Of a DNA stretch of 13,090 nt, positions 449 to 13,090 are shown one piece after another. Position numbers and translations under genes: made by a program. Under the pieces are notes generated by a model. That model worked only from the letters and a program-made list of their open reading frames with translations. It was not told the DNA's origin and did not search any database. Each line of letters begins with the position of its first letter. Within the stretch, counting starts at the first letter, position 1. This DNA comes from Phycisphaerae bacterium (GTDB lineage Bacteria; Planctomycetota; Phycisphaerae; Sedimentisphaerales; Anaerohalosphaeraceae): contig SKKI01000251.1 in NCBI GenBank assembly GCA_007121565.1, forward strand, positions 1 to 13,090. Reading direction: 5' to 3'.

Positions 449-996
449 TCGGTAAACTGCACGCGGATGTTCAGCTCTTTTTCGTCGCCTTCTAAAATGC
501 CTTCCAGCGGCAATTGAAGCCGGTAATAGGCCCCGAACAGTCCGCGTCCCCACAAACGCCTGAGCGCTTCGGGCGAAATGTCCCACTGTTTGAGCTTCGG
601 GTTATCCGCGGCCGCCAGGTTCCAGAGCTGCACCTGCACCCGGCCGGCGGCTTTGATGGTATCCTGCTCGGCGTCGGTCGGTTTGAGGTACACCACAAGC
701 GTATCCGGCGCGCCGTTGCCCTTGGACTTGTCATACAGGCCGCAGTGGCGCCCGATGCGAAGGGTTTCCGGCACGACCAGCGCCGAGATCCGAATGTCCT
801 GATCAATGCCCGCCAGGGTTTGCAATTGTGCGGTCAGCGCCGTGTTTTCTTCCTGCAGCCGCTGCACATCCAGCGACAGCCGGCTCGTTTCGTCGCTAAG
901 CTCCGAGACCTGCTGCCAGAGCGAGTCCTCAACGCGTCCGTGATGACATCCGGCCGCTGTGAATACCAGCAGTAAAATTAAAACCCCTTGTCTCAT
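400..996 (-). CDS. Putative coiled-coil lipoprotein of unknown function
   Basis: 198 aa. Residues 1-17 form a lipoprotein signal peptide: a short Arg-containing n-region, LILLLVFTA, then the lipobox-like AAGC with Cys17 as lipidation site. Residues ~24-62 have heptad-like Leu/Val spacing and are probably a coiled coil. Residues ~70-198 look like a beta-rich domain (VVYLKPTD, VQVQLWNLA, LNIRVQFTDYLTGRVLTSQK) of a kind seen in planctomycete hypothetical proteins; I do not recognise a named family. The protein should sit on the periplasmic face of a membrane. The start at 996 has a GGAAAG site 9-14 bases upstream. It lies 32 bases after the second clpP on the same strand, so it is probably co-transcribed with the protease genes. 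No terminator is visible beyond its stop at 400-402, which lies right at the edge of the integrase fragment; the C-terminus looks complete. Confidence 0.7.
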   Translation of the reverse strand: MRQGVLILLLVFTAAGCHHGRVEDSLWQQVSELSDETSRLSLDVQRLQEENTALTAQLQTLAGIDQDIRISALVVPETLRIGRHCGLYDKSKGNGAPDTLVVYLKPTDAEQDTIKAAGRVQVQLWNLAAADNPKLKQWDISPEALRRLWGRGLFGAYYRLQLPLEGILEGDEKELNIRVQFTDYLTGRVLTSQKAITP

Positions 997-1028
997 TATG
1001 ATCTTTCCGGCAAGGTTATGGACAGGCG

Positions 1029-1673
1029 TTAATCATTATCATCATTTTTATTGGATTTGGGTTTGCTGACATGCGGCGCTTTTTGAAGCACCTCATCGGC
1101 CAGGCCATACGTGATGGCCTCCTGGGCCTCCAGCCACAAATTGCGGTCGCAGTCTTTTTCGATGGTGGCTGCGTCTTTGCCGGTATGGTGGGCGAGGATT
1201 TCATACAGTCGGCTGCGCAGGCGCAGCATTTCCTTGGCCTCAATTTCGATATCCGTCGCCGGCCCGGTCATAACGCCGCTCAGCAGCGGCTGATGCAGCA
1301 TCACACGGCTGTTGGGCAGCATATACCGCTTGCCGGCTTTGCCGCCGGCAAACAGAAACGCCCCCATGCTGGCCGCCTGACCGATACAGTAGGTCGAGAC
1401 ATCGCACCGCAGAAACTGCATCGTATCATAAACCGCCAGCCCGGCCGTGATGACGCCGCCGGGTGAATTGATATAAAAGTGTATATCGGCTTCGCTGTCT
1501 TCGTTGCTCAAAAACAGCATTTGAGCGATAATGAGATTGGCGACGTCATCGTCCAGCCCGCCGCCGAGAAAAATAATACGGTCCTTGAGCAGACGGGAAT
1601 AGATATCGTACGCCCGCTCGCCGCGGCCGCTTTTTTCGATGACGATCGGTACAAGAGCGCTATTGAATGCCAT
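1029..1673 (-). CDS. clpP: ATP-dependent Clp protease proteolytic subunit ClpP, catalytic Asp replaced by Asn
   Basis: 214 aa, normal ClpP length. ClpP forms a 14-subunit barrel that degrades proteins fed in by ClpX/ClpA/ClpC-type ATPases in the cytoplasm. Family motifs are clear: [42 protein letters not shown] with the nucleophile Ser102, and [11 protein letters not shown] with His127. Aligned with E. coli ClpP from memory (Ser111, His136, Asp185), the third triad residue falls on Asn178 (codon at 1140-1142) in [10 protein letters not shown], where the usual pattern is ERDTERDRFL. There are also two extra residues just after the active-site His. An Asn in this place is known for Listeria ClpP1, which works together with ClpP2. 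The start has AGAGG at 1679-1683. It follows the other clpP by 20 bases, so the two are very probably one transcript. Family assignment is certain; reduced activity when alone is inferred. Confidence 0.95.
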
Positions 1674-1693
1674 AAAAACCTCTGTCTGTGGGG

Positions 1694-2338
1694 TTATTTC
1701 TTCTTCTTTTCGCTTTCATCCAGTTCATTGAGCACGCTGTCAATCAGCCCGTATTTCTGGGCTTCCTCGGCGGTCATATATTTGTCGCGTTCGGTTTCCT
1801 CGGCCAGTTTGTCCGCCGTCATGCCGGTGTGTCGGGACAGGATTTTGTTGATGGTCTGTTTGGCTTTGAGGATTTCCTCGGCCTGAATCCGAATGTCCTC
1901 GGCCTGTCCGGTCACGCCGCCCCAGGGCTGATGCAGCATAATCTTGGCGTGCGGCAGAGCGTGTCGCCGGCCTTCGGTGCCCGAGGCCAGAATGATCGCC
2001 GCGCCGGACTGGGCACGACCGATACAGTAGGTTGCCACCGGTGAATTGATAAAGCGAATCGTGTCATAGATAGCCATCGTGTCATCGACGCTGCCGCCGG
2101 GGGAGTTGATGTACAGGCTGATCTCCACACCCCGCTTGAGGTTGTCCAGGTACAGCAGCTTCATAATGACTTCGGTCGCCATCCGGTAGGAGATTTCCCC
2201 GATCATGAAGACGATCCGATTTTCCAGCAGCAAATCGTCCAGCGTCATCTCACGCGTTCGCTGATAGGCCACCTGCAGCCGCGGATCGAACGGCTCAGGG
2301 TTGCCTGTCATTTCAGACTTCCAGGGTTGGTAGTGCAT
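1694..2338 (-). CDS. clpP: ATP-dependent Clp protease proteolytic subunit ClpP, intact triad
   Basis: 214 aa and first gene of the leftward operon. Motifs: [45 protein letters not shown] with Ser111, [10 protein letters not shown] with His136, and [14 protein letters not shown] with Asp185, so the whole Ser-His-Asp triad is present. The ~30 residues before the first ClpP motif may include a propeptide; the C-terminus ends in a run of Lys. It differs strongly from its neighbour (GRAQSGAA against GQAASMGA around the nucleophile), so the pair is an old divergence, not a recent duplication. Mixed ClpP1/ClpP2 rings are known in mycobacteria and Listeria, and the same is plausible here. Usual neighbours tig and clpX are absent from the window. 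The start codon has AGAGGA at 2346-2351, and a promoter candidate lies about 90 bases upstream. Confidence 0.95.
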
Positions 2339-2429
2339 ACGCTTTTCCTCTATTTTGATTTAAAATCACCGGCGTTCGTTCTAAAAAACAATGTGCCCGA
2401 TGCCTTGTTATCGACACCTTTGATGTCTT

Positions 2430-2458
2430 TATTTATCACCTTGATAGAGCTTTTTCAA
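2430..2458 (-). promoter_or_regulatory. Candidate promoter of the clpP-clpP-lipoprotein operon
   Basis: Read on the minus strand: TTGAAA (2453-2458), 17-base spacer, TAAATA (2430-2435), with TGA directly before the -10 box (extended -10, TGn). Predicted transcription start is near 2423, giving a leader of roughly 85 bases. No CIRCE-type repeat was seen. The -10 match is only partial. Confidence 0.45.
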
Positions 2459-2683
2459 TAAGAATCTAAATTAATATCCCAAAACGTGCCATTTTAAGGG
2501 GTATTTTGATTTTTCTGGGTTATCGGACATTGTGCGGTACGTTTTGTGTAGTTGATCTTGCAGGCTTACAAAACAAGGGTTGCTTTTATCGGTCTAAAGC
2601 TGTCCATCTCTTTTATTTTCAATGTCTTATGGATATTTCCGGGGAGCGTGGTAGTTTTTGCTGACCGTTTTTTGATTAGCCTG

Positions 2684-2699
2684 CGGTCACGTTTGACCG
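2684..2699. promoter_or_regulatory. Palindrome overlapping the -35 box, candidate operator
   Basis: CGGTCA, 4-base spacer CGTT, then TGACCG: a perfect 6+6 inverted repeat. Its right arm covers the -35 hexamer at 2693-2698. A third copy, TGACCG, lies at 2662-2667. The position would suit a repressor of the chaperone-like operon. No known regulator is recognised. Confidence 0.4.
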
Positions 2700-2721
2700 A
2701 CATACAGGTGTAACTTAATCT
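2693..2721 (+). promoter_or_regulatory. Candidate promoter of the GrpE-like/Hsp70 operon
   Basis: TTGACC (2693-2698), 17-base spacer, TAATCT (2716-2721). The -10 keeps the key T, A and final T positions only. Transcription would start near 2728 and leave a leader of about 100 bases before the ATG at 2831. Confidence 0.4.
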
Positions 2722-2756
2722 ATATAAGGGCAAGGTGTCGGCGGGTACGGCCGGAG

Positions 2757-2796
2757 ACGGTATAACCCGGATTTTGCAAAACGGTTGTTATGCCGT
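2757..2796 (+). promoter_or_regulatory. Long hairpin in the 5' leader of the GrpE-like gene
   Basis: ACGGTATAAC-CCG (2757-2769) pairs with CGG-TT-GTTATGCCGT (2782-2796): 13 base pairs (one T-G wobble), with a TT bulge and a 12-base loop (2770-2781). It starts ~30 bases after the predicted transcript start and ends 34 bases before the ATG. Only ATTTT follows, so it is not a good terminator. A role in translation or mRNA stability is possible. Confidence 0.45.
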
Positions 2797-2830
2797 ATTT
2801 TGGCTAAATGCCCGAGAGATTGGTAAGACA

Positions 2831-4216
2831 ATGAGCCGAATGAACTGGACAATTTTGGCGTTGCTGCTAATGATTCCCGGTGCGGCCGGACTGGGCTGGG
2901 GGATTGTGCATCAACGCCAGTTGGACCAACGCATCGCCGAGGCGGCCGAGGCGATTGCCGAGGCGCCCTCAGCCGATGAGTATCTGGCGTTGTACAGCCG
3001 GTGGTCAGCGCTGTCTGCGACCGAGAAAGCGGAAAATCCATGGGGCCAGGGGCTCTACGGCGGCCCGGAGATACAGCGGCGTCTTCGCCAGGACCAGCAG
3101 GATCGGCTCATGGCCGATTTGCCGGATCTGGATGCCGGTCTGAAAAGTCATCCCCCACAGCTTGCCGAAGTGCTTTACGGGGCCGACTGGCAGCGGCGTC
3201 TGGCCGACTATCAGCGCCAGCGCGAAAGGCGCAGCGTCATCGCCAGCGGATCGGGTATTTTGCTGTTTGCCGGCTGTTTGCTGTTTGCCGGCGGAATCCT
3301 GAAGGGACTTGTGCTGCGGTATCTGGACAACGCCCAAAGCTGGGAGCAGCCCGAAGAGGCCGAGGCTCAAGATGCAGTGTGCTCAACTGCTCAGGACAGC
3401 GCCGCCGCGTCCAATGATCAGGATGAATCCGATCCCGCAGAAGCGCACGAGGCGGATGCCCCGGCCGCCCCTGAGACGCGCCGCGGCGGGCAGGGTTATT
3501 TCCAATCGACCCAAAACACCGACAAGCAGCCCGCCTCGAGGCAGCCTGCCGTCCCGTCGTCCGATCGACCCGCATCGCCTGCGGCCGAACCCGATGGATT
3601 TGCGGCGGCGGTTTCGCTGATGGATTCACCCGCGGCGCCGGCCTCGCAGGAGCATTCGTATTTCGGCTGGGCCATCGATCCCAAGGCCGAAGAGGAGCAT
3701 CCCGCGGTGACAAATTTAATGACCACACAGGCAACCGCCAGTGAATTGGCTGAACTGACCGAGCTGACCGAGGAGGTCTCGGCGATTCGACAGTACGCCG
3801 CCGCCCAGCAGGATCAAATGCGCAAGTTTCAGGATGGCTACGACTGGATGATTGTACGCCGCTTCTGCATGCGATTTATCCGCTGCATTGACAACCTGGA
3901 CGACCGGCTGGAACACTTGGGCAGTGACGAACAGATGCTTCGTGAGGCCCTGGAGGACATTCGTGATGAGCTGGTCTTCGCGCTGGAATCCAGCGGCGTT
4001 GAGCAGTACGGCCCCGATCTGAAGGCGCCGTTCAAAGGACTTGAAAAATACGTCGAGGCGGTTCGTCAGCGCGTGCCCGTCTCGGATGCGGCGCTGGCCG
4101 GAACGATTGCCGAAATCGTCCGTCCCGGCTATCAATATTTAGTCAACGATGACGAGGTGAAAATTGTACGCTGCGCACAGGTCAAGCTGTATGACGCGGC
4201 GGAAACCGAACAGTAA
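2831..4216 (+). CDS. Membrane-anchored protein with a C-terminal GrpE-like nucleotide exchange domain
   Basis: 461 aa from the ATG at 2831. TM1 is at ~7-26, a charged helical segment at 27-136, and TM2 at ~137-163 (IASGSGILLFAGCLLFAGGI). Residues ~168-300 are an acidic Ala/Pro/Ser-rich linker, ~302-365 a probable coiled coil, and ~366-455 a GrpE-like head with GTIAEIVRPGYQYLVNDDEVK close to the GrpE beta domain. Typical GrpE is soluble, ~200 aa, with one long helix; here the exchange domain is tethered by two TM segments and a long linker, and should lie in the cytoplasm. The usual FDP-HEA motif of GrpE is replaced by GPDLKAPFKGLEKYVEAV. The Hsp70 gene starts 11 bases downstream, which supports the assignment. 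An in-frame GTG at 2735 would add 32 residues, but these show no protein-like character and overlap the leader hairpin; ATG 2831 places TM1 at the N-terminus and has GAGAG at 2814-2818. Confidence 0.75.
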   Translation: MSRMNWTILALLLMIPGAAGLGWGIVHQRQLDQRIAEAAEAIAEAPSADEYLALYSRWSALSATEKAENPWGQGLYGGPEIQRRLRQDQQDRLMADLPDLDAGLKSHPPQLAEVLYGADWQRRLADYQRQRERRSVIASGSGILLFAGCLLFAGGILKGLVLRYLDNAQSWEQPEEAEAQDAVCSTAQDSAAASNDQDESDPAEAHEADAPAAPETRRGGQGYFQSTQNTDKQPASRQPAVPSSDRPASPAAEPDGFAAAVSLMDSPAAPASQEHSYFGWAIDPKAEEEHPAVTNLMTTQATASELAELTELTEEVSAIRQYAAAQQDQMRKFQDGYDWMIVRRFCMRFIRCIDNLDDRLEHLGSDEQMLREALEDIRDELVFALESSGVEQYGPDLKAPFKGLEKYVEAVRQRVPVSDAALAGTIAEIVRPGYQYLVNDDEVKIVRCAQVKLYDAAETEQ

Positions 4217-4227
4217 AGGACAAAACC

Positions 4228-5778
4228 ATGGGTACTATTGCAGGAATCGATCTGGGAACAACTTTTTCAGCGCTGGCTCGACTCAATGAAATCGGCCGGC
4301 CGGACATTGTCCCCAACAGCGAAGGGGAACGCATCACGCCCTCGGCGGTATTTTTTGACGACGAAGACGCCGGCGCGATTCGAATCGGGCTCGAAGCGAT
4401 CAACTGCCGCCAGCTTAATCCCGAGCGGTCCGTTCGCTGGATCAAACGCCATATGGGCGATACGGACTGGAAAAAGAACATTGACCAGCGCGACTGGACG
4501 CCTGAAGAAATATCCGGGCTGATCCTCAAAAAGCTCTGCCAGGACGCCTCCCGCCAGCACGATGCCATCAAAGACGTGGTCATCTCCGTGCCGGCGCATT
4601 TTGACGAAGTACGCCGCAAGGCCACGATGGACGCCGGTCATCTGGCCGGTCTGAATGTCATTGGCATCGTCAATGAGCCGGTCGCTGCGGCGTTGTATTA
4701 CGCCACGGCCCAGAGCGTCAAGGGGCGCGTGATGGTTTACGACCTCGGCGGCGGCACGTTCGACGTGACCATTCTCGATGTAGACGGCCGCGATATGAAG
4801 ATCGTCTGCAGCCAGGGCGACCACGCGTTGGGCGGTGTGGATTTTGATCGTAAGGTGCTGGAGCTGTTTGAAGAGCTTTACCGCAAGGAGTTCGACACCG
4901 AGCTGATTCAGTCCGATCAGGATCGCGCCCGTTATGAGGACGAGGCCGAAGATGTGAAAAAGACGCTGTCACGGCGTCCGACGGCCCGTCGGATCCTGTA
5001 CGGCCCGGCCGGCAGTCTGCGCGTTGAGATCACGCGCGAGCAGTTCGAACAAGCCATCGAGCCGCTGATTGCGCGAACCGAAATCCTGATCGAGGTGGCG
5101 CTGGAAGAGGCCAAATGCGGCGTCGAGGATATCAGCCAGGTGCTGCTGGTCGGCGGAAGCACACGCATCCCGACCATTCAGGAGCGATTGACTCGAAAGT
5201 TCGACCGTGCCCCTGAAAACGCCGTGAACGTGGACGAATGTGTCGCGCTGGGCGCGGCGATCCATGCCGGGCTGACGCTGATGCGAGACAATCCCCAAAG
5301 CGTCGCTTCGGGCATTGCCGCCGGGCTGCGCGATGTCAGGCTGCAGGACGTCTGCAACCACAGCTATGGAACCCTGTGTGCGCCGCTGGACAAAGAGACC
5401 GGCCGGCACGTCGTACGCAACAGTATCATCCTGCAGAAAAATACACCGCTGCCCTGTGAGGCGACCCAGACGTTTTATACGATGGCTGAAGGGCAGTCCG
5501 AGCTTCAGGTTATCGTTACACAAGGCGAAGACGAGGATCCGGAATTCGTCAACCGCATCGCGGCCGAAGAGTTCAAGCTTCCCCCCGATCGTCCCGCCAA
5601 TCAGCCGATCAGTGTACGCTACAGCTACGATGCCAATCAGCGAATGCACTGTACCTTTCTGGATGAAGAATCCGGGCGGTCGCTCGAGATGGAATTCAAC
5701 GCCGGTGACAAGGGACAGATAAAACAAGCCGATATCCGGCAGAGTGCCGAGGAAATCAGCGCCTACAAGGTCCAGTAA
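4228..5778 (+). CDS. Hsp70-family chaperone (DnaK-like) without the helical lid
   Basis: 516 aa; DnaK is about 638. The ATPase domain is complete: phosphate-1 GIDLGTTFSALA (6-17), Lys73 in the SVRWIKRHMG segment matching DnaK Lys70, NEPVAAALYY (149-158) with Glu150, phosphate-2 YDLGGGTFDVTILD (171-184) with Asp172 and Thr177, and adenosine motif LLVGGSTRIP (306-315). A beta substrate-binding domain follows at ~378-490. Only ~26 residues come after it, so the alpha-helical lid is missing. The interdomain linker, normally hydrophobic (VLLLD in DnaK), reads VRLQDV (370-375), which suggests altered coupling between domains. The start is preceded by AAGGA at 4216-4220, touching the stop of the GrpE-like gene. 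Probably a specialised Hsp70 paired with the membrane-bound exchange factor, not the housekeeping DnaK. Substrates are unknown. Confidence 0.9.
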   Translation: MGTIAGIDLGTTFSALARLNEIGRPDIVPNSEGERITPSAVFFDDEDAGAIRIGLEAINCRQLNPERSVRWIKRHMGDTDWKKNIDQRDWTPEEISGLILKKLCQDASRQHDAIKDVVISVPAHFDEVRRKATMDAGHLAGLNVIGIVNEPVAAALYYATAQSVKGRVMVYDLGGGTFDVTILDVDGRDMKIVCSQGDHALGGVDFDRKVLELFEELYRKEFDTELIQSDQDRARYEDEAEDVKKTLSRRPTARRILYGPAGSLRVEITREQFEQAIEPLIARTEILIEVALEEAKCGVEDISQVLLVGGSTRIPTIQERLTRKFDRAPENAVNVDECVALGAAIHAGLTLMRDNPQSVASGIAAGLRDVRLQDVCNHSYGTLCAPLDKETGRHVVRNSIILQKNTPLPCEATQTFYTMAEGQSELQVIVTQGEDEDPEFVNRIAAEEFKLPPDRPANQPISVRYSYDANQRMHCTFLDEESGRSLEMEFNAGDKGQIKQADIRQSAEEISAYKVQ

Positions 5779-5799
5779 TCAAGGACAAGGACAGGTTCA

Positions 5800-6942
5800 A
5801 TGACGGTGGAACATGTCAGCAAACAGATCGTTTTGGCCGGGCGATATGCGCTGGCCGCGATGAGCAGGCTGCTGGCCGCTCTATGGGCGTTTTCAAGAGG
5901 CCGGCGGTTCCGCTGTCAGGCCGAGCAGGTGTTGGATGAGACCTGTCCATCGTATGAAGACCGTTTTCTGTGTGTCAGCATGTGCGGAGGCGTCCGCGTC
6001 CCCTGCGACAATCTCGATACCGACGTGCGTGTGGAGCTGCTGGATGTCACCGAAGGACACGCCTGCGCCGAACCGGTTCTCGCGGCCGAACCGCAATGGC
6101 AGCGGTCACACTCACCGGTGTTTCATTACCAGGCGCATAACGGCGTGATTCCCTCCCGGCATTCCGTTCTGCCCAAGCCCGTTTCCGTTGTCAAAATCCC
6201 CCTGCATCAGCTTCGCTTTGCGCGTCGCGGCCGCCGGAAAATCCAGGTGCAGGTGGCGATTGTCAGCCGCGACCATCAACAGGTGTTCGCTCAGGCACAG
6301 ACCTGCACTGAATATGTGGCCCGTTATGACGGTTTTGTCGAAATGCAGGAACGGCACGAGGCGGTGCTGCGGGCTGCCGTGGAGCTTGCCTGCGCAGCGG
6401 TCGAGCAGCCGTATGTCCAAAAGGCCGCCGATCTCATCGGCGACTGGATCGCGGAAAAAACGCAGCATTTTACGCCGCGCAGTTCCCTGACCGAACCCCT
6501 GGACCGGCTGATGAGCCCGGAGGGGGTGCTGGATACGGCCGCGGCGTGCGAGTGTGTCCTGGCATGGGGTCGCAAGTCCGATGCGGGGGCGACAATGGAC
6601 CTGGTGCTGCAGGTCGCCGCGCTGCATCCGGCGCCAACCGACAGGCAGGAGACGCTGCTCTGGTCGCTGGCCGAGCAGTTGGGCATTGCCGAACAGCGGT
6701 TTCAGGTGTTATGCCAGAAATGGCTGGTAACCGACCATTGTTCGGCCCGCTGGGCGCCGCTGCTGCTGGGAATCCGGGACAGGCTCACGCCCGACGCGCT
6801 GCGCGCCCGGCTCAATGACCAGTACCGCAAATGGAACGCCCGCGTGACGCACGCCGACCCTGATGTACGTCGTCAGGCGGATATTATCTTATCCACCATC
6901 GCCGAAGTCCGCAGTCAACAGGGGGCGGTGCTTAGCCACTGA
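5800..6942 (+). CDS. Uncharacterised protein of the Hsp70 operon, TerB-like middle and degenerate J-like C-terminus
   Basis: 380 aa, no certain family. Residues ~8-31 are hydrophobic with scattered Arg and could be a membrane-associated helix. Residues ~55-170 look like a beta-rich domain. Residues ~185-325 are helical and resemble TerB-type repeats (RAAVELACAAVE, LLWSLAEQLGIAEQRFQVL). The C-terminus (~322-372) reads LLGIRDRLTPDALRARL, then QYRKW (341-345) and later ADIILSTIAEVRSQ. This order resembles the J domain of DjlA, which also has an N-terminal membrane helix and a TerB domain. Where J proteins have HPD, this one has THADPD (350-355), so the motif is not intact. The start has AAGGACAGG upstream; the gap after the Hsp70 gene is 21 bases. 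A co-chaperone role is inferred from operon position and this weak resemblance. The C-terminus could instead be an unrelated helical domain. Confidence 0.7.
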   Translation: MTVEHVSKQIVLAGRYALAAMSRLLAALWAFSRGRRFRCQAEQVLDETCPSYEDRFLCVSMCGGVRVPCDNLDTDVRVELLDVTEGHACAEPVLAAEPQWQRSHSPVFHYQAHNGVIPSRHSVLPKPVSVVKIPLHQLRFARRGRRKIQVQVAIVSRDHQQVFAQAQTCTEYVARYDGFVEMQERHEAVLRAAVELACAAVEQPYVQKAADLIGDWIAEKTQHFTPRSSLTEPLDRLMSPEGVLDTAAACECVLAWGRKSDAGATMDLVLQVAALHPAPTDRQETLLWSLAEQLGIAEQRFQVLCQKWLVTDHCSARWAPLLLGIRDRLTPDALRARLNDQYRKWNARVTHADPDVRRQADIILSTIAEVRSQQGAVLSH

Positions 6943-6974
6943 TTTGCAATCAACGGCGCCGTTTATTGAAATCA
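6940..6974 (+). terminator. Hairpin overlapping the stop codon of the third operon gene
   Basis: TGATTT-g-CAAT-c-AACG (6940-6955) pairs with CGTT-t-ATTG-AAATCA (6960-6974): 14 pairs with one bulged G, one mismatch and a GCGC loop. The first three bases are the TGA stop. No T-run follows, so it may be a 3' stability element or a Rho-assisted end, not a classic intrinsic terminator. Confidence 0.4.
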
Positions 6975-7055
6975 GCAGCTCGACAGCGGGGGGGGTACAG
7001 GCCATTGACAGGGCAACTGAAAATCATCCGTCAACCTGGGCAAAAGTGTTTCTTG

Positions 7056-7061
7056 TATAAT
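7056..7061 (+). promoter_or_regulatory. Perfect -10 hexamer, possible upstream promoter of cinA
   Basis: TATAAT at 7056-7061 in an otherwise gene-free stretch. The best -35 is poor (TCAACC at 7031-7036, 19-base spacing). It would give a cinA leader of about 155 bases. Less convincing than the promoter at 7128-7155. Confidence 0.3.
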
Positions 7062-7127
7062 CGCTCCTGTTTGTCTGGATATGGTGATGTTCTCACAGTC
7101 GCCTATCATCAATAAGCCATTTGCGAA

Positions 7128-7155
7128 TTGACGACTCACTGTAAGTCTGTATACT
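7128..7155 (+). promoter_or_regulatory. Candidate main promoter of cinA
   Basis: TTGACG (7128-7133), 16-base spacer, TATACT (7150-7155). Both hexamers match the consensus in five of six positions. Transcription would start near 7162, leaving a leader of ~60 bases before the ATG at 7223. Confidence 0.55.
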
Positions 7156-7222
7156 ATTCCAGCACAGGGTGTCAATCTTGGAATTTAATCAGCATTATCC
7201 TTGCTGAAGTCAGCGAGCTGAG

Positions 7223-8464
7223 ATGAATCGATCTGCGTTAATTAGTGTCGGTAATGAATTGTTGTGCGGCCGGACGGTGGATACCAATGCGGCCTGGCTC
7301 GGCGGGCGATTGTTTGCGATGGGCGTGCGGACGGCATCGGTTCACCTGGTTGCCGACGAGACGGCTGATATCGTCGCGGCGCTGCAGGCGGCGGCGGGGC
7401 AGGCGGATATCGTGCTTGTGACCGGCGGGCTGGGACCGACTGATGACGATCTGACCCGCAATGCGCTGGCGGAGTATCTCGGCGTTGAGTTGGAATATCA
7501 CCCTGAGCTGGCCGGGCGAATTGAGGCGTTTTTCTCCACGCGAGGCCTTTCGATGCCCGCCCGCAATCGGACACAAGCGTATGTGCCCAAAGGGGCCGAG
7601 CCGATTGATAACCCCTGCGGTACAGCTCCGGGCATCCTGTACCAGACGGAACATAAACTGATCGCCCTGATGCCCGGCGTGCCGTCGGAGATGAAGGCCA
7701 TGTGTGAGGCTTCTGTGCTGCCTCAGATCCGCCGGCGACTGGGCGGCCCGGTTATCCGCTCGGCCAACCTGCGATGTTATGGAGCCGGCGAATCGTCTAT
7801 TGCCCAGATGCTTGGCGACCGGATGCGGCGAGGCCGCAATCCTCTGATCAACTGCACCATCAGCGCAGGTATTATAACGCTTCAGATGATCGCCTCGGCG
7901 CCCAACGAGCGGCAGGCTGAATTTTTACTTGCCGAGCAGCGGGCCGAACTGGAAAAAATTCTTGGCCCGCTTGTGTTCGGCACCGGCGAACAAACGCTTC
8001 AGGATGTCCTCGGGCGACTGCTCAGTGCTCAGAACAAGACACTTGCGGTAGCGGAATCCTGTACAGGGGGACTTGTGTCCAAATTATTGACCGATGTGCC
8101 CGGGGCCAGTCAATATTTCAATTTTGGATGGGTAACCTACAGCAATAAGGCAAAAATCGAACAATTGGGGGTCTGTACGGATTTAATCGAGCAGTTCGGG
8201 GCCGTCAGCGAGCCGGTGGCAAAAGCCATGGCCCAGGGGGCGGCCCGAAAAGCCCGGGCTGATTGCGCTATAGCGATTACCGGGATTGCCGGTCCAAGCG
8301 GCCAAACGGAACAAAAAACTGTGGGACTTGTCTATATCAGTGTGTTGAACAACGAAAAATGTCAGGTCCATCGGTTTCATTTCCCCAATGCGGGACGTGA
8401 ATTAGTGCGATTGCGGGCGGCGCAAACCGCGTTAAATCTTCTTCGACTTGAATTGACCATTTGA
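7223..8464 (+). CDS. cinA: CinA family protein (ADP-ribose pyrophosphatase / nicotinamide-nucleotide amidase)
   Basis: 413 aa, full family length. Residues ~1-170 form the MoCF/MogA-like (COG1058) domain: ISVGNELLCGRTVDTNAAWL, LVTGGLGPTDDDLTR, CGTAPGI, LMPGVPSEM. A linker domain follows, then the PncC-type C-terminal domain (~255-410) with AESCTGGLVSKLLTDVPGAS, GWVTYSNKAKIEQLGV and AITGIAGPSG. Characterised CinA proteins hydrolyse ADP-ribose with the N-domain and deamidate nicotinamide mononucleotide to nicotinic acid mononucleotide with the C-domain, recycling the pyridine nucleotide that NAD-dependent DNA ligase releases. All expected motifs are present, so both activities are likely. It seems to be transcribed alone; the next gene starts 79 bases later with its own promoter overlapping this stop codon. 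The Shine-Dalgarno sequence is weak (GAGCTGAG directly before ATG). Confidence 0.95.
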   Translation: MNRSALISVGNELLCGRTVDTNAAWLGGRLFAMGVRTASVHLVADETADIVAALQAAAGQADIVLVTGGLGPTDDDLTRNALAEYLGVELEYHPELAGRIEAFFSTRGLSMPARNRTQAYVPKGAEPIDNPCGTAPGILYQTEHKLIALMPGVPSEMKAMCEASVLPQIRRRLGGPVIRSANLRCYGAGESSIAQMLGDRMRRGRNPLINCTISAGIITLQMIASAPNERQAEFLLAEQRAELEKILGPLVFGTGEQTLQDVLGRLLSAQNKTLAVAESCTGGLVSKLLTDVPGASQYFNFGWVTYSNKAKIEQLGVCTDLIEQFGAVSEPVAKAMAQGAARKARADCAIAITGIAGPSGQTEQKTVGLVYISVLNNEKCQVHRFHFPNAGRELVRLRAAQTALNLLRLELTI

Positions 8465-8489
8465 CCTGATCGGACGAGTGTGATACAAT
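8461..8489 (+). promoter_or_regulatory. Candidate promoter of the pilus ATPase cluster
   Basis: TTGACC (8461-8466), 17-base spacer, TACAAT (8484-8489), preceded by TGA (extended -10). It is one of the best promoter matches in the window. The -35 box covers the cinA stop codon (8462-8464). Transcription would start near 8496, about 48 bases before the ATG at 8544. Confidence 0.55.
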
Positions 8490-8543
8490 CAAGAAAAGAC
8501 ATTGAACGCAAAAACACTCTTATTAGGCTGCCCATAGGTACGA

Positions 8544-10274
8544 ATGCAGAAAAAACAACGACATTTAGGCGAAATTCTTTATCGCAAAGGATTTGTCGAT
8601 AAAAACAATCTGATCCGCGCCATCAAAAAGTCCAAGGCGTCCAATAAACGGCTGGGCGAGGTGCTTATTGAGATGGGGCTGGCGACAGAAGATCAGATTA
8701 CCGAAGCATTGGCCAAGCAATTCAAGCTCGAGTATGTGGACCTGGATGAGGTGGACATACCCGCCAATGCCTCGAAGCTCATTCCTGAAGAACTCATCAA
8801 AAAGCATTATGTTGTGCCGCTGGGGCAGGATAACGGGGAATTAAAAGTTGCTGTTAAAGACCCGATGGATCTGGATTTGCAGGATCTGCTTCGGTTTCGC
8901 CTTAATACCGAACTGCGTTGCTGCCTTGCCAGTCCAAGCAAGATCGATGCTTATATCAAGGGCAAGACCAGTACCGACGAAGTGCGCAACAGTATCGATG
9001 CGACGGCGGCTGAACTGGCGGAGGCCGGGCATGCGATTGAAGCGGAGGTCCGACGTGCTCAGGCCGCCGAAGACCAGGGCGATGACGCCGAAGGGCCGAT
9101 CGTCCGACTGGTCAATCTGATCATCGACGAAGCGGTAAAGCTGCGTGCCAGCGATATTCACGTCGAGCCGATGGCCGACCGTGTGCGGGTGCGCTACCGG
9201 ATTGACGGGGTCTGTGTCGAGCGCGATAACATCCCGAAAAATATGCAGGCGCCGATTATGGCGCGCGTCAAGATTATGTCGGGCATGGATATCGGCGAGC
9301 GCCGTCTGCCGCAGGATGGACGTATCAAACGCACGATCGAAAATCAGGATATTGACTTTCGTGTCTCGTGTCTGCCCGGCTATCACGGAGAAAGCACGGT
9401 ATTGCGTATTTTGCGGCCGGATTCGGTCAATATCGGCATTCAGGCCATTGGCTTTGAGTCCGAGGACTATCAGCGATTTAAAAAAATCATCAAGCGACCC
9501 AACGGCATTTTCCTGGTTACCGGGCCGACCGGTTCGGGTAAAACGACGACGCTGTATTCGGCCCTTCAGGAACTGAACCGTCCCGATCAAAAAATTATTA
9601 CGGCCGAGGATCCGGTTGAGTACAATATCACCGGTATCAACCAGTGCCAGGTTCGAACGGAAATCGGGTTCACTTTTGAATGGATTTTGCGGTCGATGTT
9701 GCGCCAGGCGCCCAATATCATTCTGGTTGGTGAAATCCGCGACGGGCTGGTGGCCGATATCGCGATTCAGGCGGCCTTGACCGGTCACCTGGTGTTCAGC
9801 ACGCTGCATACCAACGATGCCCCCAGCGCGATTACCCGGTTGATCGACATGGGAGTCAAACCGTTCCTGGTGGCCAGCTCGATTCAGGCCATCATGGCCC
9901 AGCGGCTGGTGCGTGTGATTTGTGACAATTGCAAAACCGTCGATAAGTCCCCCGATCCTCACTTTCTGCGCTTGCTGAATATCACTCCGGATGAAATACG
10001 TAAAAATCCGATCTACAAAGGGGCCGGCTGCAACCGCTGCCAGGGAACGGGGTTTCGAGGGCGAATCGCAATTTTTGAAATGCTGGAGATGAACAGTCAA
10101 CTGCGCGATTTGGCCTATGCACGCGCGCCTTCCGGTGAGCTGCGTAAGGCGGCTATCGCATCCGGCATGAAAACCCTGCTTCAGGACGGCAGGATCAAGG
10201 TGTTCCGCGGTGTCACATCGCCGTCTGAGATCGCAAAGGCCACGCAGGCCGAAGGGTTGGTGACAGACGCATGA
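8544..10274 (+). CDS. pilB: GspE/PilB-family assembly ATPase with N-terminal MshEN domain
   Basis: 576 aa, full length. It is the hexameric cytoplasmic motor that drives pilin polymerisation in type IV pilus or type II secretion systems. Residues 7-30 and 36-59 are two 24-residue LG...L motifs separated by exactly 5 residues, the MshEN pattern known to bind c-di-GMP; the first begins HLG, not RLG. The ATPase core has the Asp box (ASDIHVEP, 202-209), GERRLPQDGR (251-260), Walker A GPTGSGKTTT (327-336), Walker B ILVGEIRD (393-400) and His box HLVFSTLHTN (415-424). A zinc site is formed by CX2C at 460-463 and CX2C at 496-499. Unusual: the normally RQDPD stretch before Walker B is RQAPN (387-391), and the ETA/ETM after it is GLVAD. 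PilT and a second copy follow on the same strand. PilB and GspE cannot be separated from sequence alone. Confidence 0.9.
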   Translation: MQKKQRHLGEILYRKGFVDKNNLIRAIKKSKASNKRLGEVLIEMGLATEDQITEALAKQFKLEYVDLDEVDIPANASKLIPEELIKKHYVVPLGQDNGELKVAVKDPMDLDLQDLLRFRLNTELRCCLASPSKIDAYIKGKTSTDEVRNSIDATAAELAEAGHAIEAEVRRAQAAEDQGDDAEGPIVRLVNLIIDEAVKLRASDIHVEPMADRVRVRYRIDGVCVERDNIPKNMQAPIMARVKIMSGMDIGERRLPQDGRIKRTIENQDIDFRVSCLPGYHGESTVLRILRPDSVNIGIQAIGFESEDYQRFKKIIKRPNGIFLVTGPTGSGKTTTLYSALQELNRPDQKIITAEDPVEYNITGINQCQVRTEIGFTFEWILRSMLRQAPNIILVGEIRDGLVADIAIQAALTGHLVFSTLHTNDAPSAITRLIDMGVKPFLVASSIQAIMAQRLVRVICDNCKTVDKSPDPHFLRLLNITPDEIRKNPIYKGAGCNRCQGTGFRGRIAIFEMLEMNSQLRDLAYARAPSGELRKAAIASGMKTLLQDGRIKVFRGVTSPSEIAKATQAEGLVTDA

Positions 10275-10338
10275 TTGTGCCCGATTCGGGACTGTTTTTC
10301 GAATGAATTGATTTATTGTACTCAAACAGGAATCGATT

Positions 10339-11475
10339 ATGGCAACACTTCAAATTGATCGTTTGCTGGATGCCTGCATCAAAATGGGCGGCTCGGATCT
10401 GCATATTGTAGTGGGACGTCCGCCGGTGCTTCGCATGTCCGGCCGGATGCGTTCACTTGATACGAAGGTCCTGGAGGCCGATGACACGGTATCGCTGATG
10501 AAAAGCATTACGCCGGAGCGCAACCAGCAGGAACTGCAGGAAGTTGGCGGAACAGACTTCGGGTTTGCATTCGGCGATGCGGGGCGGTTCCGTACGTCAG
10601 TGTTTCGCCAAAAAGGACATATTTCGATGGTACTGCGTCTGATTCCCTCGGAGCTTCTGAGTTTTGAGCAGATTGGCTTGCCGAAAATATGTGCGTCCTT
10701 GTGCCGTCGGCCGCGCGGCTTGTTTTTGGTGACCGGCCCGACCGGTTCCGGTAAGACAACAACACTGGCCTCGATGATTAATTATATCAACGAAACGCTG
10801 GATCGGCACATCATTACGGTAGAAGAACCGATTGAATATTATCACTCGCACAAAAAAGCGGTCATTGTTCAGCGTGAAGTGGGGCTGGATGTGCCGACTT
10901 TTTCCGAGGCGCTGCGCCGGTCCCTGCGTCAGGACCCGGACGTGATTCTGGTGGGCGAATTACGAGACCTTGAAACCATGGAGGCGGCCATCACCGCCGC
11001 CGAAACCGGCCACCTGGTGTTCGGCACACTTCACACAACCGGTTGCCAGGGAACCGTCAACCGTATTATTGATGCCTTTCCGGTCAGCCAGCAGGAGCAG
11101 ATTCGAATTCAGCTCAGCACAAACCTGATTGCCGTCCTGAGCCAGGCGCTGTGTCCTCGAAAGGGCGGCGGTCGTGTTGCGGCGTACGAATTTATGGTAG
11201 CAACCCCGGCGATTGCCAATTTGATTCGGGAAAATAAGGTGTACCGCATCGAATCGAGCATTCAGATCGGCAAGAAGTTGGGCATGCAGTTGCTGGATGA
11301 TCACCTCTGGGAACTGTTTGATAATGATTTGATTGAACTCGATGAAATGGTCGATAAGTCGCGAAACCCGAGCGAGGTGATGGAAAAAGCTGAAAAGAAA
11401 GCCGGCGCTCCCCTAAAAATGAAAAAGAAAGTGGATGACGAGTATGGTCAAGTGCTTAAAACAGGACAAACATAA
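10339..11475 (+). CDS. pilT: PilT-family retraction ATPase
   Basis: 378 aa; typical PilT is ~345-370. PilT powers pilus retraction (twitching motility, DNA uptake) at the cytoplasmic membrane. N-terminal PAS-like region with GGSDLHIVVGRPPVLRMSG (17-35), Walker A GPTGSGKTTT (133-142), Asp box-type TVEEPIEY (160-167), RQDPDVILVGELRDLET (197-213), and His box HLVFGTLHTT (225-234). The C-terminal AIRNLIRE motif, tied to retraction in characterised PilT, reads AIANLIRE (291-298). From ~340 there is a Lys-rich tail (EKAEKKAGAPLKMKKK) that looks disordered. AGGAA at 10328-10332 gives a good ribosome site. The gap to the preceding ATPase is 64 bases, with no good promoter seen, so the two are probably co-transcribed. 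The presence of a PilT argues for a type IV pilus instead of a pure type II secretion system. Confidence 0.93.
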   Translation: MATLQIDRLLDACIKMGGSDLHIVVGRPPVLRMSGRMRSLDTKVLEADDTVSLMKSITPERNQQELQEVGGTDFGFAFGDAGRFRTSVFRQKGHISMVLRLIPSELLSFEQIGLPKICASLCRRPRGLFLVTGPTGSGKTTTLASMINYINETLDRHIITVEEPIEYYHSHKKAVIVQREVGLDVPTFSEALRRSLRQDPDVILVGELRDLETMEAAITAAETGHLVFGTLHTTGCQGTVNRIIDAFPVSQQEQIRIQLSTNLIAVLSQALCPRKGGGRVAAYEFMVATPAIANLIRENKVYRIESSIQIGKKLGMQLLDDHLWELFDNDLIELDEMVDKSRNPSEVMEKAEKKAGAPLKMKKKVDDEYGQVLKTGQT

Positions 11476-11548
11476 AGTCGAATACGGTCAATGATAGGCG
11501 GATTCTCTAAAAACATTCTGCGTTACATACTTAGTGTACAACTGATAT

Positions 11549-11571
11549 TTGATTTCAAAAATCAATTTTTT
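11549..11571 (+). terminator. AT-rich intrinsic terminator candidate after pilT
   Basis: TTGATTT (11549-11555), loop CAA, AAATCAA (11559-11565), then six T (11566-11571). The shape is right, 74 bases after the pilT stop, but the stem has only one G-C pair, so it may be weak. Confidence 0.4.
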
Positions 11572-11694
11572 GCAATTTTATTTCGGCCGCGATGTTTCAG
11601 GGTTTCCTCACTATTTTTTCTTACATCAAGGACAATATATGGTTTTTTTGCATAAAATCTTGTGTCATAAGCTAAGTGTCTAAGTAGAAAATTC

Positions 11695-11723
11695 TTGTTT
11701 TTTGTTTTGTACGTCCGTATAAT
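11695..11723 (+). promoter_or_regulatory. Candidate promoter of the second assembly ATPase
   Basis: TTGTTT (11695-11700), 17-base spacer, perfect TATAAT (11718-11723). Transcription would begin near 11730 and give a leader of about 160 bases. Confidence 0.55.
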
Positions 11724-11729
11724 GAGTAT

Positions 11730-11848
11730 AGTGGCTTATCCGTCTCTACCCCAAAAGCGGAAGTGCCACTGATCACATAGGAACTTGTAAATTGTAGCAC
11801 GGCTATCTTGGCCGTGTTCGCGGGCCCAAAGCCCTGTTGATTTTTTTT
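11730..11848 (+). promoter_or_regulatory. Structured 5' leader with three hairpins and a T-run, possible attenuator
   Basis: Hairpin 1: AGTGGC (11730-11735) with GCCACT (11765-11770), continued by TCCG (11739-11742) with CGGA (11758-11761) across a symmetric 3x3 internal loop. Hairpin 2: CACGGC (11798-11803) with GCCGTG (11811-11816). Hairpin 3: GGGC (11822-11825) with GCCC (11831-11834), followed 6 bases later by eight T (11841-11848). Hairpin 1 begins at the predicted transcript start. Hairpin 3 plus T-run resembles an imperfect intrinsic terminator ahead of the gene. No known riboswitch class is recognised; hairpins 2-3 could also be a dispersed repeat of the genome. Confidence 0.45.
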
Positions 11849-11888
11849 AGCATCGGTTTAGGAAATTCAAGACGCGGAGAGTGGACAT

Positions 11889-13090
11889 ATGGCAAAGATA
11901 CCGCCAGTCAACGAATTAAAAGGCCGTTCGTTGGGTCGCATTTTGATTAAGATGCGTTTGCTGACGCGGGAGCAGGTGCGTGAATGTCTGGTCGAGCAAA
12001 AGAAAAAAGGCGGCAAGGTTAAATTAGGTCAGTTCCTCCTTGAGAATAACCTGATCAAAAAACAGGATCTCGATGTGGCATTGGCCGGCCAGCGGGGGAT
12101 GGAGTTTGTTGATATCGAAGGTCTTGATGTTCCCGGCGACGTCCTGGAGACAGTCCCCGCTCATATTGCTCAGAATCATCGCGTGGTTCCTCTGGAGTTT
12201 GATAAATCTCGCAATCGCCTGACCGTCGTGCTGGACAATCCTGATAATTTCCGCGCGATTGACGATCTCAACACGCTGCTGGGCTTTACCGTGGAGGCCA
12301 AGATCGCCAACCGGGAGGCCGTCGACGCGGCGATTGATAAGTACTACAAAGAAGAAGAATCCAGCATGAACGAGTTGATCGGCGAAATCGAGAGCGATGT
12401 GTCGCTGACGCAGTTTGGGGGGCGCGATCAGAGTATCGATCTGGATTCCCTGCAGGAGATGGCCGACTCGACCGGCGTTAAGAAGCTGCTGAACCTGGTC
12501 CTGCTTCAGGCGATTCGCGACAAAGCCTCCGACATCCATTTTGAGCCTTTTGAAGAAGAATACAAGCTCCGCTACCGCATTGACGGCGTGATGTATGAAA
12601 TGGTGCCGCCGCCCAAGCATATTGCGATGGCCCTGAGCAGCCGTATCAAGGTCATGGCCAACTTGGACATTGCCGAGCGCCGCCTGCCGCAGGACGGACG
12701 TATCCCGCTGATGGTCAGCGGCAATCCGGTGGATTTGCGTGTGAGTATTTTGCCGACCATGTTCGGCGAGAGCGTGGTGCTGCGTGTGCTGGACCGGACA
12801 CAGGTGGACCTGAAACTGGACCTGCTGGGGCTCAGGGACCACGAGCTGTCGATGGTTCGCCAGTTGATTCATAAACCCAACGGGATTGTGGTGGTGACCG
12901 GACCGACCGGCTCGGGCAAAACCACCACCCTGTATTCCTGTCTCAAAGAGCTCAATAACCCCGAGACGAAAATCATCACCACAGAAAACCCGGTCGAATA
13001 CGACATTGACGGCCTGATTCAGGTGCAGATTCGGCCGGAAATCGACCTGACCTTTGCCAAGTGCCTGCGGTCGATTTTACGTCAGGACCC
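11889..13090 (+). CDS. pilB: Second GspE/PilB-family assembly ATPase, 3' end beyond the window
   Basis: 400 complete codons, open at the right edge. MshEN-like N-terminus: SLG...EQ (14-37) and KLGQFLLENNLIKKQDLDVALAGQ-type motif (45-68), here with a 7-residue spacer and with Gly missing at the tenth position of both motifs, so c-di-GMP binding is doubtful. ATPase core: ASDIHFEP (213-220), AERRLPQDGR (262-271), Walker A GPTGSGKTTT (338-347), TTENPVEY (364-371, where TTEDPVEY is common). The window ends inside the RQDP motif before Walker B; unlike the first copy, this one keeps the usual RQD. The start has GGAGAG at 11876-11881. It has its own promoter and leader, so it may be regulated apart from the upstream ATPase. 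The Walker B and zinc regions, if present, lie outside the window. Confidence 0.88.
   Translation, partial: MAKIPPVNELKGRSLGRILIKMRLLTREQVRECLVEQKKKGGKVKLGQFLLENNLIKKQDLDVALAGQRGMEFVDIEGLDVPGDVLETVPAHIAQNHRVVPLEFDKSRNRLTVVLDNPDNFRAIDDLNTLLGFTVEAKIANREAVDAAIDKYYKEEESSMNELIGEIESDVSLTQFGGRDQSIDLDSLQEMADSTGVKKLLNLVLLQAIRDKASDIHFEPFEEEYKLRYRIDGVMYEMVPPPKHIAMALSSRIKVMANLDIAERRLPQDGRIPLMVSGNPVDLRVSILPTMFGESVVLRVLDRTQVDLKLDLLGLRDHELSMVRQLIHKPNGIVVVTGPTGSGKTTTLYSCLKELNNPETKIITTENPVEYDIDGLIQVQIRPEIDLTFAKCLRSILRQD

Follow-up and report, generated by a model that had tools for sequence, protein, structure and literature searches.

Here we describe a three-gene locus of a Phycisphaerae bacterium that probably encodes a dedicated Hsp70 machine, tethered to the membrane and belonging to one planctomycete order, insulated from the housekeeping DnaK-DnaJ-GrpE set and remodelled in its partner contacts. 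The locus lies in a window of 13,090 nucleotides, the whole stretch of DNA that was analysed, which is contig SKKI01000251.1 (C56 in our numbering) of the draft assembly GCA_007121565.1 (1.72 Mb in 335 contigs, completeness 77.7%). Gene 1 encodes a GrpE-type protein with two predicted transmembrane (TM) segments, gene 2 an Hsp70 without the lid, and gene 3 a protein with a TerB-like part followed by a C-terminal part whose J-like nature is unproven. The three genes lie on one strand with intergenic gaps of 11 bases (genes 1 and 2) and 21 bases (genes 2 and 3), and a renewed check returned exactly the open reading frames and gaps given in a preliminary description of this DNA. The start of gene 1 was set at the ATG at position 2831 and not at the upstream GTG at 2735, a choice backed by the N-termini of its relatives.

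We read the trio as a dedicated machine because it stays together while its neighbours change. A scan of species genomes with a gene 1 profile found 61 loci, in which gene 1 is present by construction; all carry the label of a planctomycete group but for one assigned to Gammaproteobacteria, which is perhaps a mislabelled metagenome-assembled genome. Gene 2 follows gene 1 on the same strand in every locus and gene 3 comes next in 56 of the 61, the remaining five loci stopping 0-429 bases past gene 2, so that the order of the trio claimed in the preliminary description is kept in related genomes. The gaps are short throughout, with the exception of L036 and L043, where a gene is in pieces and which were excluded from the gap ranges, and of L041, which has one gap of 167 bases. 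Gene 1 was found in 97 of 161 genomes of the order, corresponding to 46 of 84 genera, and in 37 of 66 good genomes, and a draw of 199 genomes from the phylum gave matches in three of the five that belong to the order and in none of the 194 from outside it.

A search of 392 genomes of the phylum found gene 3 in 9, including two that do not belong to the order. At both outside loci an Hsp70 (43-46% identity) precedes the gene 3 relative and an M48 peptidase follows it, and the 16-17 kb examined there showed no relative of gene 1. Since the Hsp70-gene 3 pair occurs there without gene 1, the pair may be older than the addition of the GrpE. These loci come from other planctomycete families (L166, positions 5876-9918; L167, positions 6785-10694), their Hsp70s are likewise lidless, and the M48-family peptidase beside the pair at both of them hints at protein quality control.

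The relatives of the window's genome encode their housekeeping chaperones at other places. A separate DnaK gene was found in all 15 whole relatives (14 full length and one partial), as was a separate canonical GrpE, and the trio is thus not the housekeeping set. Neither of the two outcomes that the preliminary description had named as refuting its idea was therefore seen. In seven of these genomes, those in which a canonical DnaJ was also sought, the DnaJ was found in all seven, GrpE scored 146-161 bits and DnaK was full length in six and partial in G002; the eight further relatives (95-99% complete) encode a full DnaK at 858-886 bits and a canonical GrpE at 139-164 bits. One of the whole relatives with a separate DnaK belongs to the window's own genus and is 99% complete.

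Gene 1 is of GrpE type in both family and fold. Its residues 305-452 match PF01025 (GrpE) at 32.1 bits, against a cut-off of 25.8, and its structural model (mean predicted local distance difference test score, pLDDT, 72.5, with values below 50 mainly in residues 173-302) has the GrpE architecture of a long and a short helix (residues 301-362 and 368-387) followed by the strands of a beta wing (390-456). A Foldseek search with this model returned as its best match GrpEL1 with mortalin (E 1.5e-5), and E. coli GrpE with DnaK at E 1.1e-4, the best matches to these two proteins spanning E 1.5e-5 to 3.3e-4. Both TM hydropathy peaks, starting at residues 8 and 143, are present in 27 of 30 rows of the gene 1 family, the window protein included. 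The stretch between them is conserved, is modelled as helical and contains the motif NPWGQG.YGGPEIQ; if the GrpE domain is assumed to be cytoplasmic, as a partner role would require, this stretch would therefore lie on the other side of the membrane, facing outward.

Gene 2 is a member of the Hsp70 family in which the lid is missing. It matches PF00012 at 330.7 bits over profile positions 1-513 of 599 and is 33% identical to E. coli DnaK. We compared it within a set of 59 trio Hsp70s, drawn from 58 loci and the window, from which L010, L036 and L069 were omitted as having no full Hsp70. The residues D8, T11, T12, K70, E171, D194, T199 and D201, which we take to be the catalytic residues of the Hsp70 ATPase, are kept in 59 of 59, and gene 2 would be expected to have ATPase activity. 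The beta substrate-binding domain is present, and the lid is scored as missing because only 41-46 residues remain past its YD.N.RM motif in every member of the set, compared with 152 in E. coli DnaK; an alignment that put the last three residues at DnaK position 585 reflects an artefact of the short tail. The preliminary description had called gene 1 a GrpE-like factor with two TM segments and gene 2 an Hsp70 without a lid, and had rated both family calls as solid, which they proved to be.

A tree that used 24 of the 59 proteins placed the trio Hsp70s in one clade (support 100/99), apart from DnaK, HscA and HscC. HscA and HscC form long branches in this tree and their placement is unsure. The two pair Hsp70s from outside the order join the trio clade with support of 100/93.

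Judging by the alignments, both canonical contacts of Hsp70, to the HPD (His-Pro-Asp) motif of the J-protein and to GrpE, appear to be altered in the trio. According to passages in the literature, Arg167 and Gln378 of DnaK contact Asp35 of the DnaJ HPD motif, and the DnaJ mutation D35N is suppressed by DnaK R167H (PMC8215388, PMC7289447, PMC5519331). The Arg167 position is occupied by Gly in 53 and Ala in 6 of the trio Hsp70s and by Arg in none of the 59; Arg is kept in seven of seven planctomycete DnaKs and in E. coli DnaK, HscA and HscC. Gln378 is kept in three of the trio proteins and is His in 54. All trio copies further carry Val in place of Thr173, Met in place of Lys155 and Gly in place of the arch residue Met404, and their linker keeps Leu391 and Asp393 with mostly polar residues at 390 and 392. 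On the GrpE side, Gly32 and Arg34 of the GrpE contact loop are kept in 59 of 59, HscA and HscC having H and Y at position 34. Because the fold of gene 1 matches GrpE complexed with an Hsp70, and because these two contact residues are kept throughout, we favour a partnership between the GrpE-type protein and the Hsp70.

The AlphaFold2 model of gene 3 (mean pLDDT 90) consists of an N-terminal helix, a beta sandwich from about residue 36/38 to 174, a helical part and C-terminal helices. The structure search made with gene 3 concerned the beta sandwich portion. For the window protein the best Pfam match was DUF503 (E 2.1), and neither TerB nor DnaJ was found at E up to 1. The TerB assignment is supported through relatives: PF05099 was matched by 27 of 37 gene 3 family members when counted at E up to 1 instead of at the family cut-off (best E 2.2e-11), and three relatives scanned singly passed that cut-off of 24.4 bits (P0028 with 29.9, G530 with 37.8 and G020 with 30.1 bits). 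The family alignment (A3) held 33 of the 56 locus proteins, the window protein and three database proteins.

The J-like reading of the C-terminus starts from the model, in which the helices at residues 316-322, 331-346 and 354-379 come in an order that fits J-domain helices I-III. The sequence LLLGI stands at the place of the J-domain LG motif, and a conserved Y.KW(N/S).RV ends the second helix. In a profile comparison with J domains the C-terminus scored 18.6, above all of 100 column shuffles (maximum 17.3), in an alignment that spans just helix I and most of helix II. In a separate scan of the C-terminal pieces (A4), 7 of 25 matched PF13446 (RPT, UCH protein repeat) weakly, with a best E of 0.056, possibly through a shared helix pattern.

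In the mechanism that we propose, gene 1 would be a two-TM GrpE partner with its GrpE domain in the cytoplasm and a conserved helical domain across the inner membrane, and gene 2 would be an active ATPase whose open, lidless peptide-binding domain would suit short-lived contacts with clients that are folded or bound to the membrane. Gene 3 would be a DjlA-like adaptor that joins client and Hsp70 via its TerB-like and J-like parts, its contact with the Hsp70 being made without the HPD-Arg167 pair; the likeness to DjlA is favoured because the order of a TerB domain and then a C-terminus of J or J-like type is that of DjlA. The membrane topology, the ATPase activity, the physical partnership, any triggering of ATP hydrolysis by gene 3 and the nature of the client are all points that we infer.

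Several observations weigh against this reading of the trio, or for a narrower role. All 59 trio Hsp70s have a deletion of the GrpE-signature loop, a deletion shared by HscA and HscC of E. coli, and in none of the 59 are Lys55 and Arg56 kept; read with the passages of a review that tie such losses in HscA and HscC to GrpE independence (PMC8215388), these changes speak against a standard GrpE contact. No gene 1 match was found in 29 of the 66 good genomes of the order, and the set is therefore dispensable there. PF00226 (DnaJ) was matched by none of 37 gene 3 family members at E up to 1 and by none of 25 C-terminal pieces. At the loop in question HPD is present in 14 and absent from 70 of 84 gene 3 proteins (3 of 87 proteins, two of them fragments or unlike the rest, are without the loop pattern), the window protein having THAD. 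An hhalign comparison of the C-terminus with thirteen J domains gave a probability of 9.3%. A clear N-terminal TM peak was seen in 31 of 87 gene 3 proteins, the window protein reaching 1.52 against a threshold of 1.6. Finally, 16 of 61 loci have, on the strand of gene 1, a T2SSE-type ATPase gene whose end lies no more than 100 bases upstream of it, an arrangement that would suit a more specialised function.

The figure of 9.3% was obtained with the true N-terminal J domains of DjlB and DjlC in the set; the same comparison gave 5.0% with seven planctomycete DnaJs (30 shuffles) and 5.5% with E. coli J domains added, when a DjlC stretch outside the J domain was used and DjlB was absent. The failure to match PF00226 calls for some caution, as DjlB and DjlC, which are proven partners of an Hsp70, also fall under the cut-off of 27.8 bits (21.1 and 19.3 bits, with DjlA at 41.8 bits), though they do match the profile, unlike gene 3. 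In E. coli K-12 djlB and djlC (L125, positions 1416-5664) encode the two partners of HscC, and the J domains of both have HPE; with this control the absence of HPD stands less alone, and a J-like gene 3 gains slightly in plausibility.

The preliminary description had given gene 3 TerB-like and J-like parts and the role of J-type partner, in an operon said to rebuild the Hsp70 cycle at the membrane. Its TerB-like part holds through the relatives, and its J-like part does not gain recognition from PF00226 in any of the 37 proteins; the partner role is not borne out, given that result, the loss of HPD from 70 of 84 proteins and the low profile probability. That the trio rebuilds the Hsp70 cycle is too strong a statement for an Hsp70 that has lost Arg167 and the GrpE-signature loop. 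The broader idea of a membrane chaperone machine apart from DnaK-DnaJ-GrpE keeps its conserved unit, its two-TM GrpE and the housekeeping genes elsewhere, and is thus supported in part, the J-type partner as first worded being without support.

The alternative that survives best, although we consider it unlikely, is that gene 3, instead of being a J-type partner, serves as a scaffold or as an adaptor for clients, with the lidless Hsp70 triggered by the housekeeping DnaJ or independently of any J-protein. The PF00226 result, the small share of gene 3 proteins with HPD and the weak profile similarity agree with this, and a canonical DnaJ would be available in each of the seven whole genomes searched. 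However, Arg167 is lost in 59 of 59 trio Hsp70s and Gln378 is kept in 3 of 59, and as both are contacts of HPD Asp35 in the account drawn on here (PMC8215388), a normal DnaJ should fit badly; moreover, 56 of 61 loci have gene 3 in the next place, and the remaining five break off before it could be seen.

Less probable still is that the trio serves to assemble a type IV pilus or a type II secretion machine and is not a general membrane chaperone. Besides the upstream ATPases mentioned above, the T2SSE-type ATPase protein cluster, of which one member (L032) was Pfam-checked, is represented at some place in 22 of 61 loci, and three T2SSE ATPases are encoded downstream of the trio in the window. 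In other loci a different gene lies nearest upstream, however: 9 have a protein of about 626 aa there and 5 a zf-HC2-like protein, and in the window it is ClpP. The association with ATPases may be inherited gene order.

We see very little chance that the trio is a conflict or defence system, a reading suggested by the HSP70, GrpE and DnaJ-fused genes that part of a study of GTPase-centred systems describes in some GTPase neighbourhoods (PMC7159879), by a passage that speculates that TerB domains serve phage defence (PMC11709261) and by the 29 good genomes without gene 1. A search of the three proteins with PADLOC gave 0 matches at E up to 0.01, on which ground this reading was dropped; no recurrent effector-like neighbour appeared among the clusters listed, for which part of the neighbours were annotated, and the trio Hsp70s form a single clade. 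That the trio is a divergent version of the organism's housekeeping DnaK set can be dismissed with near certainty: no dnaK other than gene 2 was found in the window's assembly, but that assembly is 77.7% complete and has canonical dnaJ and grpE in a groEL-dnaJ-grpE cluster on contig C250, cut by the contig end, and the separate DnaK in 15 of 15 whole relatives refutes this reading for them.

We therefore keep to the dedicated, membrane-tethered Hsp70 machine. A bolder version of it, which we put forward tentatively and regard as doubtful, is that the on-switch of the Hsp70 has been rebuilt, with the HPD-Arg167 contact lost from the Hsp70 of every trio and from most of the partner proteins beside it, and the GrpE contact remodelled on the membrane GrpE, so that there is no cross-talk with the housekeeping set; a second Hsp70 set of the same genome, on contig C2, would then be another case. 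Of the whole system we find the altered J contact the most interesting, but the loss on its two sides is not strictly coupled. A strict coupling of HPD loss with Arg167 loss was considered and rejected: the pair Hsp70 of G530 keeps Arg beside a gene 3 with TNKD, that of G020 has Lys beside THDD, 14 of 84 gene 3 proteins have HPD with Arg167 absent from 59 of 59 Hsp70s, and HscC has Arg with HPE partners.

The second small set of the window's genome (L002, G000:C2, positions 669-4138) comprises a GrpE-like protein of 218 aa, a lidless Hsp70 of 531 aa with His at DnaK position 167 and Asp at 170, a VWA protein of 231 aa and a J-like protein of 134 aa. The last reaches 24.1 of the 27.8 bits required for DnaJ, is without HPD and has a hydrophobic C-terminal segment. 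A second Hsp70 of G308 groups with the C2 Hsp70 at 100/100.

The coordinates of the trio are collected in Table 1. Counts of promoters and terminators were near the shuffled background (4 against 2.0, standard deviation 1.5, and 5 against 5.1, respectively), and Rfam gave no match in the window.

Table 1. Positions of the three genes and of their parts in the window
Feature	Position	Strand	Evidence
Gene 1: membrane GrpE-type protein, 461 aa	2831..4216	+	PF01025 and Foldseek matches
Gene 1 TM segment 1 (residues 8-26)	2852..2908	+	Hydropathy peak 2.10
Gene 1 TM segment 2 (residues 143-161)	3257..3313	+	Hydropathy peak 2.22
GrpE domain of gene 1 (residues 305-452)	3743..4186	+	PF01025, model, structure matches
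Gene 2: Hsp70 without lid, 516 aa	4228..5778	+	PF00012 330.7 bits; short tail after YD.N.RM
Gene 2 Gly146 codon, aligned to DnaK Arg167	4663..4665	+	Alignment
Gene 2 interdomain linker RDVRLQD (DnaK VLLLD region)	5329..5349	+	Alignment
Gene 3: 380 aa; N-terminal helix, beta sandwich, TerB-like part, J-like C-terminus	5800..6942	+	Family alignments, AlphaFold2 model
Gene 3 beta sandwich (residues 36-174)	5905..6321	+	Model
Gene 3 TerB-like helical part (residues 176-312)	6325..6735	+	PF05099 in relatives, not in the window copy
Gene 3 J-like C-terminal part (residues 313-380)	6736..6939	+	Model helices, weak profile match
Gene 3 loop THAD replacing HPD	6847-6858	+	Loop counts

Around the constant trio the neighbours differ among loci. 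The window itself opens, at the contig end, with a phage-type integrase represented by its N-terminal part (2-448, PF02899), and then has two adjacent ClpP genes on the minus strand (1029-2338, both PF00574); ClpP was dropped as a functional neighbour, its cluster being found in the window alone. Downstream of the trio, three type II/IV secretion ATPases stand in a row (8544-13088, PF00437), of 576 aa, 378 aa and 400 aa, the last cut by the contig end. At L025 (4640-5742) and similar loci, 13 of the 61, the region upstream encodes a zf-HC2-like protein (below cut-off), a small sigma-70-type factor, or both, as possible regulators.

Compared with known systems, the trio shares the Hsp70 ATPase core, the beta substrate domain and the GrpE fold with DnaK-DnaJ-GrpE, but lacks the lid, Arg167 and the GrpE-signature loop, places its GrpE behind two TM segments and has no recognised J domain in gene 3. 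The nearest functional parallel is HscC with its membrane-anchored DjlB and DjlC, a specialised bacterial Hsp70 with dedicated membrane partners encoded nearby, as described in part of a review (PMC8215388); the two partners likewise depart from HPD. In contrast to the trio, HscC keeps Arg167 and, according to the same passages (PMC8215388), part of the lid, and it is expected there to work without a GrpE partner; DjlB and DjlC do match PF00226, below cut-off, and the trio Hsp70s form a separate clade. The nearest domain order is that of DjlA, in which a membrane helix, a TerB-like domain and a C-terminal J part follow each other, as outlined in part of one source (PMC11709261), whereas gene 3 contains a beta sandwich in addition, fails to match PF00226, mostly lacks HPD and has an N-terminal TM segment that is not general. 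The GTPase-centred conflict systems described in eLife in 2020 also have, in the portion drawn on, adjacent HSP70 and GrpE genes and a DnaJ-fused protein (PMC7159879), but the trio is without an FNIII-DnaJ fusion, a PADLOC match or a GTPase among its annotated neighbours. No description of the trio was found in the open literature searched, as judged mostly from summary listings.

Stimulation by a J-protein through HPD and Arg167 is regarded as the common switch of Hsp70s. A family in which 59 of 59 Hsp70s are without Arg167, beside a mostly HPD-less partner, would offer a natural test of whether that switch can be replaced. The trio also bears on how two Hsp70 sets keep apart in one cell. Passages of a review name three prokaryotic Hsp70 types, DnaK, HscA and HscC (PMC8215388), and the trio would extend these with a membrane-linked type that owns a GrpE.

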